From: Marinitoga hydrogenitolerans DSM 16785
GTDB taxonomy: Bacteria; Thermotogota; Thermotogae; Petrotogales; Petrotogaceae
Direction of reading: 5' to 3'
NCBI RefSeq assembly: GCF_900129175.1
Contig: NZ_FQUI01000026.1
Location: forward strand, 1-32,729
Length of the DNA stretch: 32,729 nucleotides
The position numbers and the translations under genes were made by a program. This document shows positions 24,891 to 31,364 of the stretch, in pieces. How positions within the stretch are numbered: the stretch's first letter is position 1; each line of letters begins with the position of its first letter. The notes under the pieces are model-generated. The model saw only the letters and a program-made list of their open reading frames with translations, made no database searches and had not been told where the DNA came from.

Positions 24891-24908
24891 ATATAGGGGG
24901 TGGAACAT

Positions 24909-25418
24909 ATGGTTAAAAGAGAGATGACAAGAAAATTTTTAGAAGATGCTTTTTGTGGTGAGTCAAAAGCTCACATGAAATATTCTATTTATGCTGAAGA
25001 TGCAGAAGCTCAGGGTAAAAAAAATTTAGCAAGATTATGGAGAGCTATAGCATATGCAGAATTTGTTCATGCAAGAAATCATTTTAAAGCATTGGGATAT
25101 TTAGGAGCAGTGGATGCAAATTTAGAAGATTCAGCTGCTGGAGAGCATTTCGAAATTGAAGAAATGTATCCAGTATATAAAAATGCATCAGAATTTCAAG
25201 AAGAAAAAGAAGCTATAAGAAGTGCGCATTTTGCTTTGGAAGCAGAAAAAATACATGAAAAAATGTATAATGATGCGCATGAGTATTTAAAAAATAACGA
25301 TGATTTAGAAGATAAAAAGATTTTTATTTGTGAAATATGTGGATATACTACATTTGACACAGTTCCAGATAAATGTCCTGTATGTGGAGCACCAGCAGAA
25401 AAATTCAAAGAATTTTAA
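24909..25418 (+). CDS. rbr: Rubrerythrin
   Basis: A 169-residue NADH-dependent peroxidase of strict anaerobes. The ferritin-like four-helix domain supplies the diiron ligands (ESKAHMKYSIYAEDAE, EFVHARNHF, and ALEAEKIHEKMY). The C-terminal rubredoxin-like domain has two CxxC knuckles (CEICGYTTFDTVPDKCPVCG). AGGGGGTGG (24895-24903) places translation at the ATG at 24909; an in-frame GTG at 24900 is part of that ribosome binding site. The superoxide reductase gene follows after 24 bp. Together they convert superoxide to peroxide and peroxide to water without releasing O2. Confidence 0.97.
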   Translation: MVKREMTRKFLEDAFCGESKAHMKYSIYAEDAEAQGKKNLARLWRAIAYAEFVHARNHFKALGYLGAVDANLEDSAAGEHFEIEEMYPVYKNASEFQEEKEAIRSAHFALEAEKIHEKMYNDAHEYLKNNDDLEDKKIFICEICGYTTFDTVPDKCPVCGAPAEKFKEF

Positions 25419-25442
25419 AAAATTTAAAAGAGGTGGGTAATA

Positions 25443-25799
25443 ATGAAATTAGGCGATGTAATTAAAAGTGCTGATTTTAAAAGTGAAAAACATGTTCCTG
25501 TAATAGATACTCCGGATAAAGTGAAATCTGATGAATTATTTAAAGTTGAAGTTCAGGTTGGTAAAGATATCCATCATCCTAATACTGTTGAGCATCATAT
25601 TTCCTGGATTGACTTATATATTCATTATGATGGAGATCCTAATACAGTTCATCTAGGAAGATTTGAATTTGGTCCAGCTGTAACTGAACCTCATGTTGTT
25701 ACACATATAAAACTTAATAAAAAAGGCACATTAATAGCGCATTCTTATTGTAATATCCATGGTTTATGGGAATCACAAAAAGAAATAGATGTAGAATAA
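25443..25799 (+). CDS. Superoxide reductase (neelaredoxin-type)
   Basis: A 118-residue one-iron superoxide reductase. It lacks the N-terminal desulforedoxin domain of two-iron desulfoferrodoxin, so it is of the neelaredoxin type. The iron site is readable: Glu15-Lys16-His17 (EKHVPVI), His45 and His51 (HHPNTVEHHISW), Cys103 and His106 (YCNIHGLW). It reduces superoxide to hydrogen peroxide with electrons from rubredoxin. ATG follows AGAGGTGGG. It is paired with rubrerythrin, which removes the peroxide formed. Confidence 0.97.
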   Translation: MKLGDVIKSADFKSEKHVPVIDTPDKVKSDELFKVEVQVGKDIHHPNTVEHHISWIDLYIHYDGDPNTVHLGRFEFGPAVTEPHVVTHIKLNKKGTLIAHSYCNIHGLWESQKEIDVE

Positions 25800-25826
25800 A
25801 GAATAGCCTTCGGGCTATTCTTTTTA
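25798..25826 (+). terminator. Terminator of the rubrerythrin-SOR operon
   Basis: GAATAGCC (25801-25808), a TTCG tetraloop, GGCTATTC (25813-25820), extended by A-T pairs on the flanks and followed by a T-run. The stem begins just after the stop codon. Confidence 0.93.
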
Positions 25827-25858
25827 TATTAGTTAATCTTTTCGTAACAATATAATGT

Positions 25859-25864
25859 TATAAT
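25859..25864 (+). promoter_or_regulatory. Candidate -10 box of the hydrogenase maturation operon
   Basis: TATAAT at 25859-25864 (another at 25851-25856) in the short gap after the SOR terminator. A -35 box is not obvious. Transcription would start near 25871, leaving a leader of about 127 nt. Confidence 0.45.
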
Positions 25865-25870
25865 AATCAC

Positions 25871-25997
25871 AATTAAAAGTGAATAAATTCTCCTGAGATG
25901 AAGGAAGAAATTCTGACATCAAGGGAGGGGATGAGTATTAAAGGAATAATAATATATTCCCCTTCCTTGGTGTTAAACGAAAGGAAGGGGATTTTTT
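25871..25997 (+). promoter_or_regulatory. Structured leader with mutually exclusive hairpins upstream of the hyd operon
   Basis: The leader contains a terminator hairpin (25959-25990) and a competing antiterminator. AAGGGAGGGG (25921-25930) can pair with CCCCTTCCTT (25959-25968), ten pairs with one G-T, which are the same bases as the left arm of the terminator. Further upstream, TTCTCCT (25888-25894) can pair with AGGAAGAA (25902-25909), and GATG (25897-25900) with CATC (25917-25920), giving a possible sensing domain. An alternative reading is a short leader peptide: ATG 25931, directly after the GGGAGGGG, opens a 25-codon frame (MSIKGIIIYS...) that crosses the terminator and stops at 26004-26006. 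I do not recognise a known riboswitch class. Confidence 0.65.
25959..25997 (+). terminator. Attenuator terminator covering the ribosome binding site
   Basis: CCCCTTCCTT (25959-25968), a 12-nt loop, AAGGAAGGGG (25981-25990): a perfect 10-bp stem followed by ATTTTTTAT. The right arm is also the only Shine-Dalgarno of the next gene (GGAAGGGG, ATG at 25998). The hairpin would therefore both end transcription and hide the ribosome site. A terminator directly before a start codon only makes sense as a regulated switch. Confidence 0.8.
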
Positions 25998-26246
25998 ATG
26001 GAAGATAAAATTAGTACAATATCTATTATTGTGTATAACAGGGAATTAGCTTATCAAAAGGTAAGTGATATCTTACATAATTACGGAGAAAAAATTTTAT
26101 TAAGAGTAGGATATCCGATGAAAGAAAAAGGGATAGCTATAATATTTTTAGTAGTAGAGATGACCACAGATGAATTGGGAGCACTTTCAGGAAAATTAGG
26201 TCAAATAGAGTCAGTTAAAGTAAAAACAAATACTTTAAAGATATGA
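25998..26246 (+). CDS. TM1266-family putative [FeFe]-hydrogenase system regulator
   Basis: An 82-residue ACT-like/NikR-C-like alpha/beta protein of the family called iron-only hydrogenase system regulator, after TM1266 of Thermotoga maritima. The fold is suggested by STISIIVYNRELAYQKVSDI and GIAIIFLVVEMTTDELGALS, two alternating strand-helix halves. There is no DNA-binding domain, so it may sense a ligand or assist maturation directly. It is first in the operon with hydG, 9 bp upstream, and its ribosome binding site lies inside the attenuator hairpin; autoregulation is conceivable but is inference. Confidence 0.9.
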   Translation: MEDKISTISIIVYNRELAYQKVSDILHNYGEKILLRVGYPMKEKGIAIIFLVVEMTTDELGALSGKLGQIESVKVKTNTLKI

Positions 26247-26255
26247 GGTGAGAGT

Positions 26256-27671
26256 ATGTATTTTATTAAAGATTCAGAGAATTTAAAATCATTTATTCCC
26301 GAAGAAAAAATCCAAGAATTACTTGAAAAAACAAAAAATCCAGATCCCGTTAGAGTAAGAGAAATAATACAAAAGTCTTTAGATAAAAATCGACTTGATC
26401 CAGAAGAAATGGCGATATTACTTAATGTTGAAGATAGAGATTTGCTCGAAGAAGTTTTTGAAGGTGCGCGTGAATTGAAAAGAAGAATATATGGTAATAG
26501 AATAGTTTTATTTGCACCTTTGTATATAGGTAATGAATGTATTAATAATTGTCAGTACTGTGGTTTTAGAGTTACAAATAATGCTATTGAGAGAAGAAGT
26601 TTATCAATAAATGAAGTTGTGGAAGAAGTGAAAGCTTTAGAAAATAAGGGACATAAAAGATTAATAGTTGTATTTGGAGAACATCCTAAATATGATGCAA
26701 AATTTATGACAGAAACGATTAAGGCAATATATAATACAAAATTAGGTAAGGGGGAAATTAGAAGAGTAAATGTAAATGCAGCGCCACAGACAGTAAAAGA
26801 TTATAAGTTGTTTAAAGAAGTGGGAATAGGGACATTTCAAATTTTCCAGGAGACATATCATTATGAGACATATAAAAAATATCATTTAAATGGTCCTAAA
26901 TCCAATTATCATTGGAGATTATATGGGTTAGATAGAGCATTTAAAGCGGGATTAGATGATGTTGGTATAGGTGCTTTGTTTGGTTTATATAATTGGAAAT
27001 TTGAAGCTATGGGTTTATTGTATCACACTATTCATTTTGAAGAAAGATTTAATGTTGGACCACATACTATATCTTTCCCAAGGATGGAACCAGCTTTAGA
27101 TACCCCAATTGCAGAAAAGCCACCATATGCAGTATCTGATGAAGATTTTAAAAAATTGGTAGCAATTTTAAGATTGGCTGTCCCATATACAGGATTAATA
27201 CTAACTGCGAGAGAACCAGTAGAGATAAGAAATGAAGTTATGAAATTTGGAGTGTCTCAAATAGATGGAGGTTCATCAATAGGCGTAGGTAGTTATCATG
27301 AAACAGATGATGAAAAAATTAAAAGAAGTCAATTTTTATTAGGTGATAATAGAACATTAGATCAGATTATTGAAGAATTGGCTGAAGAAGGTTATTTACC
27401 TTCATTTTGTACAGGGTGTTATAGGTTAGGAAGAACAGGAGAACATTTTATGGAATTTGCAATTCCGGGATTTGTAAAAAGGTTCTGTACTCCAAACGCA
27501 ATATTAACATTTTTAGAATATATTGAGGATTATGCGCCAGAAAGGACAAAAGTAATTGGTATTAGAAGAATAGAAGAAGAAATAAAAAACATGAAAAATA
27601 ATCCTTTAAAAGAGCAGTTACTTGAAAAAATAGAAAAAGTAAAAAATGGCGAAAGAGATTTATACTTTTAG
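26256..27671 (+). CDS. hydG: [FeFe]-hydrogenase maturase HydG (radical SAM, tyrosine lyase)
   Basis: HydG cleaves tyrosine to give the CO and CN ligands of the H-cluster, delivered as an Fe(CO)2(CN)-cysteine unit. The radical-SAM cluster motif CX3CX2C is Cys95, Cys99 and Cys102 (ECINNCQYCGF). The second, HydG-specific cluster motif CX2CX22C is Cys385, Cys388 and Cys411 (FCTGCYRLG ... KRFC), which separates it from the related ThiH. The length of 471 residues is normal. ATG follows GAGGTGAG. It is second in the operon, directly followed by hydE. Confidence 0.98.
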   Translation: MYFIKDSENLKSFIPEEKIQELLEKTKNPDPVRVREIIQKSLDKNRLDPEEMAILLNVEDRDLLEEVFEGARELKRRIYGNRIVLFAPLYIGNECINNCQYCGFRVTNNAIERRSLSINEVVEEVKALENKGHKRLIVVFGEHPKYDAKFMTETIKAIYNTKLGKGEIRRVNVNAAPQTVKDYKLFKEVGIGTFQIFQETYHYETYKKYHLNGPKSNYHWRLYGLDRAFKAGLDDVGIGALFGLYNWKFEAMGLLYHTIHFEERFNVGPHTISFPRMEPALDTPIAEKPPYAVSDEDFKKLVAILRLAVPYTGLILTAREPVEIRNEVMKFGVSQIDGGSSIGVGSYHETDDEKIKRSQFLLGDNRTLDQIIEELAEEGYLPSFCTGCYRLGRTGEHFMEFAIPGFVKRFCTPNAILTFLEYIEDYAPERTKVIGIRRIEEEIKNMKNNPLKEQLLEKIEKVKNGERDLYF

Positions 27672-28775
27672 GTGGTGATTATAATTTCAAAAAGATTTGA
27701 GAAATTAACAAAAAGATTAGTTGACATTAAAACTGAAATGCCAGAAGAAATAAATAAAATTATAGATTATTTCATAAAAAATAAAACATTAGATTATGAG
27801 AAAATACTGTGGATATTATCATTAAAAGACGAAGTCATAAAAGAAAAGATTTTTAAAGTTGCAGATATTGTAAATAAAATTCTGAATACTGATATAGTTA
27901 CATTAAAGGGAGTTATAGAATTTAGTAATTATTGTAAAAAAAGTTGTTATTATTGCGGTATTAGAGTTCAAAATGAAGAGATTAATAGATATAGAATACC
28001 AATTAATGAGATTTTTCAAATAGCAAAAAATGGAGTAGAAATGGGATTAACAACGATAATTTTACAATCTGGAGAAGATGATAATTATAGTGATGATGAA
28101 TTAGAAGCATTAATTTATAAAATACATCATGAGTTAAAAACAGCTGTATCAATATCAATAGGTGAAAGGAGTAAAAAAGCTTATGAAAGATTTAGAAAGG
28201 CAGGAGCTTCAAAGGTATTATTAAAGCATGAAATAATAAATAGAAAAATATTTGAGAGTATTCATCCAGATAAAGATTATGATTTAAGAATAAAACTGTT
28301 AGATCATCTTGTTGATTTAGGTTATATAACAGGTTCTGGTAATATAATAGGTCTTCCTGGTCAAACATTAGAAGATATTGCAAAAGATATTATTTTTATG
28401 AAAGAGCATAATATAAAAATGATAGGCATGGGACCGTTTATTTCTACACATAATACGCCATTAGAAAATTATAAAAATGGTTCAGCGGAATTGACGTTAA
28501 AGGCATATGCTGCAACTAGATTAGCTATACCATATGCGCAGATGCCAGCGACAACGGCACTTGGAACTATAGATAGAAAATATCAATTTAAAGCATTGAA
28601 TTGTGGGTGTAATGTTATTATGGTTAATTTAACACCTGATAAATATAGAGAAAATTATAATATTTATGACGAAAAAATAAAGGTAGATCTTATTGAAACC
28701 GCAAAAGAAATTATAAATATGGGATTGTCTATTCCGCCATATACATTAAGAAATTTGTTCATAAAGGAGGCATAA
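27672..28775 (+). CDS. hydE: [FeFe]-hydrogenase maturase HydE (radical SAM)
   Basis: HydE processes the HydG product on the way to the [2Fe] subcluster. The radical-SAM motif is Cys88, Cys92 and Cys95 (SNYCKKSCYYCGIR). The optional second-cluster cysteines near the C-terminus of T. maritima HydE are absent; the tail reads VDLIETAKEIINMGLSIPPY, as in many homologues without that cluster. The start is unclear. The only canonical in-frame start codons here are GTG at 27672 and 27675, but they lie inside the apparent Shine-Dalgarno GGTGGTGAT (27671-27679). A ribosome placed there would begin at AUU 27684 (SKRFEKLTKR follows). Coordinates use GTG 27672. Confidence 0.96.
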   Translation: MVIIISKRFEKLTKRLVDIKTEMPEEINKIIDYFIKNKTLDYEKILWILSLKDEVIKEKIFKVADIVNKILNTDIVTLKGVIEFSNYCKKSCYYCGIRVQNEEINRYRIPINEIFQIAKNGVEMGLTTIILQSGEDDNYSDDELEALIYKIHHELKTAVSISIGERSKKAYERFRKAGASKVLLKHEIINRKIFESIHPDKDYDLRIKLLDHLVDLGYITGSGNIIGLPGQTLEDIAKDIIFMKEHNIKMIGMGPFISTHNTPLENYKNGSAELTLKAYAATRLAIPYAQMPATTALGTIDRKYQFKALNCGCNVIMVNLTPDKYRENYNIYDEKIKVDLIETAKEIINMGLSIPPYTLRNLFIKEA

Positions 28776-28776
28776 T

Positions 28777-29988
28777 ATGGCTTCTCCAATGAAAGGATAT
28801 AGAAAATATATAGCAATAACTGGTAAAAGAAACGTAGGGAAATCCACGTTGATAAATGCTATATTAGATCAGGATATAGCGATAATAAGTGATAAACCTG
28901 GAACAACAACAGATCCAGTATATAGGAGTATGGAATTAGCTCCTTTAGGGCCAATTACATTAGTGGATACTCCAGGTATAGATGATGATGAAAATGAAAT
29001 TGGAAAAAAGCGAATAAACAAAGCGAATAAAGCATTATATAAAGCAGATATTTCTTTATTAGTTGTAACAGATGTAGTTTCTGAATATGAGAAAAAATTA
29101 ATCGACAATTTTAATAAATTAAACATTCCTTTTATAGTAGTGATAAATAAAATAGATGAGTTAACTAATATTGAAGAAATAAAAAAATCTTATATTGAGT
29201 TCACAAAAGAAATTGTAGAAATATCTGCAAAAGAACACAAAAATATTGAATATTTAAAAAAGAAAATATCAGAAATAACACCTAATGATGAAGAAATCCC
29301 CTTAATAGCAGATTTAATAGAACCGGGGCAACTTGTAGTTTTGGTTGTACCAATAGACTTAGGTGCTCCGAAAGGTAGGCTGATAATGCCCCAGGTTACA
29401 GCTATTAGAGAAATATTGGATAGAGAAGCTATAGCGATTGTAACTAAGGAAAGGGAATTAAGACACACTTTAGCAAAATTAAATCAAAAACCAGATTTAG
29501 TAGTTACTGATTCACAGAGTGTTATGAAAGTAGTTTCTGATATAGATTTTGATACACCGTTAACAACCTTTTCTATATTAGAAGCTCGTCATAAAGGTGA
29601 TTTAAATGTTTTATCAGATGGAATAAAAGCAATTGAAAATTTGGAGGAAAATGATAAAGTTATTATAATGGAAGGATGTTCTCATAGGCCATTAACAGAA
29701 GATATAGGAAGAGTCAAAATACCAAGATGGTTAACAAATCATTTAGGAATAAATTTAAATATAGAATTTTTTGCAGGTGTGGATTTTCCAGATTATGAAA
29801 TTATTAAAGATGCTAAATTAATTATACATTGTGGAGGATGTACTTTAACAAGGAAGAATATGTTAAGAAGAATACATATCGCAAACATGTATAGTATTCC
29901 GATAGTCAACTATGGAGTTATAATATCTTATTTACATGGTGTTTTAGATAGAGCATTAGAAATTTTTCCTGAATTAAAGAAGGTGTAA
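28777..29988 (+). CDS. hydF: [FeFe]-hydrogenase maturation GTPase and scaffold HydF
   Basis: HydF assembles the diiron subcluster and transfers it to apo-hydrogenase. The N-terminal GTPase domain has the P-loop GKRNVGKS (16-23), switch I PGTTTDP, DTPG and NKID. The C-terminal cluster site is CxHx47HCx2C: Cys301 and His303 (EGCSHRP), His351, Cys352 and Cys355 (IHCGGC), matching the HydF signature. 403 residues. ATG follows AAAGGAGG, one base after the hydE stop. The presence of HydE, HydF and HydG together shows that the cell makes an active [FeFe]-hydrogenase; the structural hyd genes are outside the window. Confidence 0.98.
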   Translation: MASPMKGYRKYIAITGKRNVGKSTLINAILDQDIAIISDKPGTTTDPVYRSMELAPLGPITLVDTPGIDDDENEIGKKRINKANKALYKADISLLVVTDVVSEYEKKLIDNFNKLNIPFIVVINKIDELTNIEEIKKSYIEFTKEIVEISAKEHKNIEYLKKKISEITPNDEEIPLIADLIEPGQLVVLVVPIDLGAPKGRLIMPQVTAIREILDREAIAIVTKERELRHTLAKLNQKPDLVVTDSQSVMKVVSDIDFDTPLTTFSILEARHKGDLNVLSDGIKAIENLEENDKVIIMEGCSHRPLTEDIGRVKIPRWLTNHLGINLNIEFFAGVDFPDYEIIKDAKLIIHCGGCTLTRKNMLRRIHIANMYSIPIVNYGVIISYLHGVLDRALEIFPELKKV

Positions 29989-29990
29989 TT

Positions 29991-31364
29991 GTGCGAAAAG
30001 AAAAAGATTTTATAGGAGAAGTTGAAATTTCTGATAATGTGTATTATGGTATACATACATTTAGAGCACTTAATAATTTTCCAAATACAGGTGAAAAGTT
30101 TAATGAAAGTTTTTTGTGGGCCTTTTTTATGATAAAAAAGGCCGCAGTAATTGTAAATTATGAATTGGGATATTTAAATGATAAAATTTATGAAAGCATT
30201 ATTAAAGCATGTGATGAATGGGAGATATTGAAAAATGATATTGTTGTTGATCCATTAAGTGGTGGGGCAGGAACTTCGATAAATATGAATGTTAATGAGG
30301 TTATAGCAAATAGGGCTACAGAACTTTTAGGCGGAGAAAAATCAGAATATATTGTTAATCCTTTAGATCATGTTAATATGCACCAATCAACAAATGATGT
30401 ATTTCCAACAGCCGGGAAGATAGCTATAATAAAGGAATTGAGAGAATTAGTTGAAAATATTATTATTTTGCAAGATAATATTCAAATTAAAGAAAAAGAA
30501 TTTATTAAAATACGAAAAATAGGTAGAACTCAATTAATGGATGCAGTTCCAATATTATTAGGACAAGAATTTGGTGCATGGGCAGATGCTTTGAGTAGAG
30601 ATAGATGGAGACTATATAAAGTTGAAGAAAGAATAAGAAGTGTAAATATTGGTGGAACTGCAATAGGAACGGGAATAGCAGCTCCAAAAAATTATATTTT
30701 AAAAATAACGAATAAAATTAGAGAAGTTACAAAAATTGGAATAGCTAAAGCTGAAAATTTAATAGATGCAACACAAAACTTGGATGTTTTTTCAGAAGTA
30801 AGTGGGTTATTAAAATCATTAGCTGTGAATTTAATAAAAATATCTAATGATATTAGATTGTTAGGATCAAGTTCAATAAACGAAGTAATATTGCCAAAAA
30901 TTCAAGCTGGAAGCTCGATTATGCCAGGGAAAATAAATCCTGTAATTCCTGAATATGCAATACAATTGTCGATGAGTGTAATAGCTTTTGATAATTTAAT
31001 AACAAATGCAGCAAGTTTAGGTAATTTAGAGTTGAATCATTTAACTCCTATGATAATACATTATACATTAAAATCAATAGAATTTTTAAAAAAATCAACA
31101 TATGCTTTAAAAAAATATATAAACTTAATTCAACCAAATGAAGAAAGATGTACAAAAAATCTAATGCAATCTTTTACGTTAATTACACCTTTAATTGAAT
31201 TATTTGGATATGAAGAAGTTTCAGATTTTTTGAAAAAAAATAATTATAATATTGAAAAAGCAGTAGAAGAACTATCAAAGAAATATAATGTAAATTATAA
31301 TGAATTAATAAATAAATTAAAATCTAATAAAACAGCCGGACTTGGTTATAATTTAAAAAAATGA
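29991..31364 (+). CDS. aspA: Aspartate ammonia-lyase (aspartase) in the hyd operon
   Basis: A 457-residue member of the fumarase/aspartase superfamily. The signature loop is GSSIMPGKINPVIPE; the VIPE ending and GTSINMNVNEVIANRA fit aspartase better than fumarase, which has PTQCE and GTQ.NMN. The substrate region HVNMHQSTNDVFPTAGKIAI is intact. The C-terminal segment after about residue 400 (YEEVSDFLKKNNYNIEKAVE) is typical. It starts with GTG at 29991, two bases after the hydF stop, with AAGGTGT as ribosome site. As the last gene of the hydEFG operon it may supply ammonium for the azadithiolate bridge of the H-cluster (inference), or simply feed fumarate metabolism. Confidence 0.9.
   Translation: MRKEKDFIGEVEISDNVYYGIHTFRALNNFPNTGEKFNESFLWAFFMIKKAAVIVNYELGYLNDKIYESIIKACDEWEILKNDIVVDPLSGGAGTSINMNVNEVIANRATELLGGEKSEYIVNPLDHVNMHQSTNDVFPTAGKIAIIKELRELVENIIILQDNIQIKEKEFIKIRKIGRTQLMDAVPILLGQEFGAWADALSRDRWRLYKVEERIRSVNIGGTAIGTGIAAPKNYILKITNKIREVTKIGIAKAENLIDATQNLDVFSEVSGLLKSLAVNLIKISNDIRLLGSSSINEVILPKIQAGSSIMPGKINPVIPEYAIQLSMSVIAFDNLITNAASLGNLELNHLTPMIIHYTLKSIEFLKKSTYALKKYINLIQPNEERCTKNLMQSFTLITPLIELFGYEEVSDFLKKNNYNIEKAVEELSKKYNVNYNELINKLKSNKTAGLGYNLKK

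Follow-up and report, generated by a model that had tools for sequence, protein, structure and literature searches.

The window analysed here, i.e., the whole 32,729-nucleotide stretch of contig NZ_FQUI01000026.1 of Marinitoga hydrogenitolerans DSM 16785, contains an [FeFe]-hydrogenase maturation operon that opens with a TM1266-family gene and continues with hydG, hydE, hydF and an aspA-like gene (Table 1). AspA is a known companion of hyd operons, where it has been connected with the nitrogen in the dithiolate (DTMA) of the H-cluster (PMC11736057). Directly upstream (window 24900–25799) there are rubrerythrin-like and desulfoferrodoxin-type (superoxide reductase) genes, an oxygen-defence pair beside the maturation operon. 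The terminator of the upstream gene is located at 25798–25823, and the leader is the sequence between that terminator and the ATG of the TM1266 gene at 25998.

At the promoter, the palindrome ATGTTATAATAATCACAA has 10 of 12 matches to the Rex consensus TTGTGAN6TCACAA taken from PMC6391272 (shuffle p 0.01), and a Rex-like palindrome with at least 9 of 12 matches is found near the promoter in 33 of 52 related leaders. Rex is, from the operator-like sequence, a putative second layer of control at the TM1266 operon promoter. A two-gene unit of Caldicellulosiruptor bescii, in which a “CopG family” regulator is paired with hydG, is bound by Rex 181 bp ahead of its start codon, yet deletion of rex hardly altered expression of that unit (PMC6391272); a spacing of 181 bp would leave room for such a leader.

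Table 1. Leader elements and genes of the maturation operon, in positions of the window.
Feature	Position	Strand	Basis or remark
Rex-like palindromic operator (putative)	25855–25872	+	ATGTTATAATAATCACAA; overlaps −10 element TATAAT, 25859–25864
Conserved symmetric hairpin (anti-antiterminator)	25889–25928	+	Covariance model, covariation counts, fold
P1	25889–25894/25923–25928	+	Inward neighbour is GA/AA loop
P2	25897–25900/25917–25920	+	Inward neighbour is AA/GA loop
P3	25903–25906/25911–25914	+	
Antiterminator, 5' strand	25916–25930	+	ACAUCAAGGGAGGGG; overlaps 3' strand of P2 and P1
Antiterminator, 3' strand	25959–25973	+	CCCCUUCCUUGGUGU; overlaps terminator 5' arm
Intrinsic terminator	25958–25997	+	Arms 25958–25968/25981–25991 (11 pairs); U-tract 25992–25997
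Shine-Dalgarno of TM1266 gene	25981–25990	+	AAGGAAGGGG; is the terminator right arm; seven bases 5' of ATG
TM1266-family gene (82 aa)	25998–26246	+	TIGR03959, 92.2 bits (cutoff 60.8); proposed RNA-binding autoregulator
hydG	26256–27671	+	TIGR03955, 502 bits
hydE	27672–28775	+	TIGR03956, 302 bits
hydF	28777–29988	+	TIGR03918, 522 bits
aspA-like aspartate ammonia-lyase	29991–31364	+	NF008909, 554 bits

Architecture of the Leader

The leader folds with a z of −4.3 against dinucleotide shuffles, none of 200 shuffles being equally stable. Its first element is a hairpin of 14 pairs, in which P1, P2 and P3 are separated by two 2x2 internal loops, and which the covariance model R1 matches at 25884–25934 with 65.2 bits, where the window sequence is itself part of R1. 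The 3' side of this hairpin can instead form an antiterminator of 15 uninterrupted pairs between ACAUCAAGGGAGGGG and CCCCUUCCUUGGUGU (z = 11.7 when the downstream segment is shuffled); CCCCUUCCUUGGUGU in turn shares its bases with the terminator, whose stem is followed by UUUUUU and then immediately by the start codon. The original prediction had described a perfect terminator hairpin just before the first gene, with the Shine-Dalgarno as its right arm, and the sequence is as described; the alternative pairing that it gave to the left arm exists and is longer than reported, and the upstream pairings that it offered as a possible sensing domain prove to be one hairpin.

While the terminator still lacks its right arm, the antiterminator gives the best fold (−37.0 kcal/mol), and for the full leader the best fold is hairpin plus terminator (−38.0 kcal/mol); the two leader states are therefore nearly balanced. 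When the window was scanned with sigma-70 and terminator consensus patterns, the upstream gene's terminator was the only one recovered, and the leader terminator was missed because of its 12-base loop.

Conservation and Covariation of the Hairpin

A DNA search of 103 Thermotogota genomes showed that the leader is also present in other families, and with a simple pattern the core CUGAGRUGRAGG...CUGACAYCRAGG, with variants, was found in 52 of 67 TM1266 upstream regions. Across 49 distinct Thermotogota sequences the 14-pair stem is supported, with 95.3% of cells paired and two-sided changes at 9 of the 14 pairs. The covariation score of this alignment equals 0.398, compared with 0.211 for shuffles, none of 500 reaching the observed value, and at most 0.227 for slid registers, and the RNAalifold consensus is the identical structure. 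A 47-sequence alignment of all lineages, with Ignavibacteria and Clostridia added, gave 0.476 versus 0.230 in shuffles.

The variants of P2 are GRUG/CAYC, GAUC/GAUC, GGUC/GACC, GCCC/GGGC, GUCC/GGAC, AACC/GGUU and GUUU/AAAC, and in Clostridia all four of its pairs vary freely, GACG/CGUC included, with CUGA and RAGG constant. Both strands of the core read CUGA-NNNN-RAGG, and column statistics give CUGA/RAGG, with CUAA as a shared variant, for the outer as well as the inner half-site. On the basis of these consensus sequences, the hairpin is to be regarded as a pair of equivalent half-sites that a two-fold axis, running through P2, maps onto each other, and the internal loops would be tandem mismatches of the G-A type beside a U-G pair. 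A reading of the CUGA/RUGA elements as kink-turns was ruled out, as the loops are 2x2 without a three-base bulge.

Distribution of the Motif and Its Gene Context

When R1 was run over the 103 Thermotogota genomes at E ≤ 1e-3, the motif was found in 64 of 67 TM1266-positive and in 0 of 36 TM1266-negative genomes, and its sites precede TM1266, hydG, hydE, hydF or hydA. In four genomes the motif precedes hydG and the TM1266 gene is elsewhere (motif-hydG is the arrangement of Kosmotogaceae-type genomes), one genome has it before hydE-TM1266-hydG, and three before hydA-TM1266-hydG (G066, G068 by inspection, and G070 by position). It precedes hydF-aspA in seven genomes, barely above threshold in G047 and G059, and the weaker matches in six others are hydF leaders with their own terminators; hydF carries the motif in Thermotoga, Pseudothermotoga, Fervidobacteriaceae and Mesoaciditogaceae-type genomes. 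Presence of the motif before two or more operons of the same genome points to a diffusible signal.

In Thermotoga and relatives the motif occurs a second time in the genome, in a more divergent form and with a short terminator of its own, before hydF (eight leaders). At another locus (G048:C38:17875-17921) a hydF-type motif is followed by an apparent mobile-element insert with an HNH-like frame in place of hydF. At five loci in genomes of family f7 the motif is just 3' of hydA, followed by a short frame (by eye), after which the next gene is hydG in all but one (L250); the short frame is possibly a TM1266 remnant or a leader frame.

Outside the phylum, the listed matches of an exact-pattern scan of 85,000 genomes were mostly chance, and one convincing match among those listed was a motif before the TM1266 gene of an Ignavibacteriales MAG. 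R1 applied to 245 Ignavibacteria-class genomes found seven sites before TM1266-like genes and one before hydG. At seven Ignavibacteria loci the motif and TM1266 are followed, by eye, by a TonB-dependent-receptor-like gene and not by hydG, a neighbour that suggests an uptake role tied to the H-cluster or its metal. Models R2 and then R3, used on 398 genomes (phylum including Lachnospiraceae; Clostridia and relatives), gave approximately 30 genomes with a hyd-linked motif, placed directly before hydG, TM1266-hydG, TM1266-hydE or hydF. R2 and R3 include sequences found by the earlier models, and the scores for those are not independent; gene context was never used in the model searches and is therefore independent evidence.

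Model matches away from hyd genes, e.g., those in rpoB-, sufB-, hslU- and topA-like coding genes, were judged to be chance, and the motif belongs almost exclusively to hyd genes. A weak motif-like match (G507:C16:90858-90908, 22.8 bits) with a hairpin downstream lies before a gene of no recognised identity, and is either chance or an unusual member. We are almost certain that a real regulatory RNA regulon for H-cluster maturation has been found. The original prediction concerned the leader of a single operon; the element is more widespread than that, and is shared by the members of a hydrogenase-maturation regulon that spans no fewer than three lineages.

Layouts of the Switch and Polarity

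For the 52 Thermotogota leaders, the strongest helix that the 3' strand of the motif can form with the segment downstream was determined, together with any hairpin that has a T-rich tail. Antiterminator complementarity with z > 2 is present in 47 of them (median z 7.3), a terminator-like hairpin with at least four T in the nine-base tail likewise in 47, and the arms of the two overlap in 45. The alternative pairings are thus kept in relatives, which was one of the points on which the original prediction was open to refutation: all three elements, i.e., hairpin, antiterminator and terminator, are found again across Thermotogota, and with covariation. The terminator version is also found in 9 of 10 hydF leaders.

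The five leaders without complementarity all belong to family f7, where the 3' strand of the hairpin reads GAGGAGG just before the start codon, evidently as the Shine-Dalgarno. This Shine-Dalgarno-in-hairpin layout also occurs in six Clostridial hydG leaders. As most of the Ignavibacteria and Clostridia leaders tested show no clear competing helix, it is in Thermotogota alone that the terminator version is established. Both the terminator and the Shine-Dalgarno layout place the gene under a folded hairpin that would shut it off, and we therefore infer, with considerable confidence, that the folded state is OFF.

Mutually exclusive anti-antiterminator, antiterminator and terminator arms, as found in the Thermotogota leaders, are the layout of PyrR-type attenuation. 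The leaders also contain a conserved, covarying, aptamer-like domain joined to an expression platform, which is the structural composition of a riboswitch.

Comparison with Known Systems

We know of no RNA-level control of [FeFe]-hydrogenase maturation. In the literature covered, outside which the survey 10.1093/nar/gkx699 falls, control of hydG, hydE or hydF by RNA was nowhere reported, and the only related mention concerned tungsten-cofactor riboswitches, which are unrelated, before a ferredoxin hydrogenase gene. The T. maritima transcript map (PMC3636130) does not mention TM1266 by name in its main text. The original prediction did not assign the leader to a riboswitch class, and Rfam 15 agrees, as the leader reached no family's gathering score and permissive E-values returned chance matches only; in the window and in 20 related loci from three lineages, all matches were to tRNA and rRNA. 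Two Rfam candidates were rejected, namely the PyrR binding site RF00515 (18.1 bits against a gathering score of 54, E = 2.5) and the ribosomal protein L10 leader RF00557 (22 bits against 44). The motif resembles published orphan riboswitch candidates in being a short conserved structure with alternative platforms before the genes of one pathway (PMC11109978, PMC8632094, PMC6429828, PMC2864571), and the main texts of these four articles mention no hydrogenase-linked motif, hydrogenase or hydG. The RNA family is therefore likely, not certainly, novel.

The closest system in mechanism is PyrR attenuation of the pyr operons of Bacillus subtilis, in which the protein of the first gene stabilises an anti-antiterminator hairpin with the consequence that the terminator forms, and in which the element stands before several genes of one pathway (PMC7430163). 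The RNA consensus, the arrangement of the loops and the proposed protein (TM1266, the candidate binder) are nevertheless unrelated to those of PyrR, and the site described here is two-fold symmetric and also has a form that would occlude the Shine-Dalgarno. In the LicT/BglG (RAT) system, a symmetric protein dimer sits on a near-symmetric hairpin, which has two internal loops and is in competition with a terminator. Our hairpin is alike in being near-symmetric, two-looped and in competition with a terminator, but the bound hairpin of LicT/BglG is the antiterminator (ON), whereas here it would be the anti-antiterminator (OFF), and the LicT/BglG protein differs from TM1266 in fold and sequence.

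TM1266 as the Candidate Effector

The predicted structure of TM1266 (pLDDT 95) matches best the solved homologue 2nzc, which dates from 2006 and carries no description beyond putative regulator; the second match is to the NikR C-terminal domain (TM-score about 0.8). By this model, TM1266 would have the fold of the regulatory domain of NikR, a symmetric tetramer. Unlike NikR, TM1266 has no N-terminal DNA-binding domain, so NikR-type action is not possible, and any regulation by this protein of 82 aa must act otherwise. Nor does TM1266 possess a recognised RNA-binding domain.

Every tested genome that has a hyd-linked motif also has TM1266, scored above the curated cutoff or recovered in the same search. 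These are 64 Thermotogota and 30 Clostridia, and among them are unlinked cases, such as G476, where the motif is located at 953 kb and TM1266 at 1,532 kb. Five HydG-positive Thermotogota genomes of one genus (g6) have neither TM1266 nor the motif, and a sister genome (G034) has all three; as these belong to one clade, the co-loss may be a single event. In four of the g6 genomes hydG was seen, by eye, just 3' of the tmRNA gene, with no motif and no TM1266. None of 13 HydG-positive, TM1266-negative Clostridia have the motif, a result that alone is not significant. On the other side, three TM1266-positive Thermotogota genomes (G041, G005 and G102) have no detected motif, and the same is true of most TM1266-positive Clostridia at the sensitivity of the model. 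Another TM1266 relative, a weaker one, is encoded in the genome from which the window comes (G000:C8:35019-35255; 32.8 bits, below cutoff), and an R1 search of this genome gave no second motif.

The co-occurrence, the two-fold symmetry of the site and the fold of the protein, which recalls the symmetric NikR tetramer, together tip the balance slightly towards TM1266 being the protein that would bind the hairpin. Several possible signals were listed in the original prediction, including the TM1266-type protein itself, and this is the option that the evidence favours, as a candidate. To hypothesize further, at odds that we consider even, TM1266 could be a stand-alone homo-oligomeric RNA sensor of a new type, similar to the NikR C-domain and ACT domains, which would sense the status of H-cluster assembly, through metal, an organometallic intermediate or the demand for maturases, and bind the two-fold site before maturation operons, thereby governing a trans-acting regulon in Thermotogota, Ignavibacteria and Clostridia.

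Proposed Mechanism and Alternatives

Our main reading, to which we assign a probability of roughly 0.6, is a new cis-regulatory RNA family that controls the [FeFe]-hydrogenase maturation regulon by PyrR-style attenuation, with TM1266 as the most likely effector. When maturation capacity is sufficient, the 40-nt hairpin with its two half-sites would be bound and stabilised, which would withdraw the 5' strand of the antiterminator and allow the terminator to form before the first gene, the formed terminator at the same time burying that gene's Shine-Dalgarno. With the hairpin unbound, the antiterminator would form and the operon would be transcribed. In lineages that have no terminator, the 3' strand of the hairpin would itself be the Shine-Dalgarno, and the same event would block translation. 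The binder would most likely be TM1266, whose gene comes first in many of these operons and whose product would be a small sensor resembling the NikR C-domain, acting much as PyrR does on pyr leaders. The structure, its covariation, the mutually exclusive pairings, the membership of the regulon and the co-occurrence with TM1266 are observed; the polarity, the contact of TM1266 with RNA and the physiological signal are the steps that we infer.

The OFF platforms would also suit a metabolite or metal riboswitch, whose hairpin would bind the Fe-CO-CN-cysteine synthon, Fe2+, SAM, CO or cyanide directly and for which TM1266 would be a mere member of the regulon. The conserved internal loops, the anti-antiterminator, terminator and Shine-Dalgarno platforms and the limitation of the regulon to a single pathway all fit such a switch. 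However, it does not lead one to expect absence of the motif where HydG is kept without TM1266, and a two-fold symmetric helix with two short internal loops only is more like a site for a dimer than a pocket; we hold the riboswitch to be unlikely, and still the leading alternative to TM1266-mediated attenuation. Considerably less probable is a different, general RNA-binding protein or a self-acting attenuator dependent on temperature or transcription speed, the link to TM1266 then being the shared hyd pathway. The near-equal folding energies given above make a passive switch possible, and TM1266 and HydG are correlated anyway, but the near-invariant loop residues in both half-sites and in three lineages argue for specific recognition, as does the near restriction of the motif to hyd genes.

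The remaining two alternatives concern the leader as a whole. A frame of 25 codons, which starts at 25931 and crosses the terminator, had been put forward as a second possible mechanism, that of leader-peptide attenuation; the frame is there, and several Thermotoga leaders are open over the corresponding stretch. Almost half of the 52 leaders, however, lack a start codon in that position, and the remaining frames differ in length and sequence and share no regulatory codons. The frame is thus not conserved, which refutes this mechanism for the family and makes it highly improbable for the leader in the window. Purine-rich and pyrimidine-rich arms can pair by chance, which is the case for an ordinary constitutive terminator with chance upstream complementarity, but covariation, phylum-wide conservation and the strength of the antiterminator pairing in the window speak against it; it is refuted by conservation, and we give it next to no weight.

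Significance

The motif defines a pathway-wide regulon of hydE, hydF, hydG and TM1266, with hydA in a few genomes, and gives a testable job to TM1266, whose solved structure is known only as that of a putative regulator. It could also be used to mark hyd gene clusters in metagenomes. In Caldicellulosiruptor, where Rex binds the hydG promoter and deletion of rex hardly matters (PMC6391272), the element may bear on this puzzle, if it is present in that operon. As the maturases are required for any active [FeFe]-hydrogenase, the switch would, if our reading is true, offer a natural place at which to control the biological production of hydrogen.
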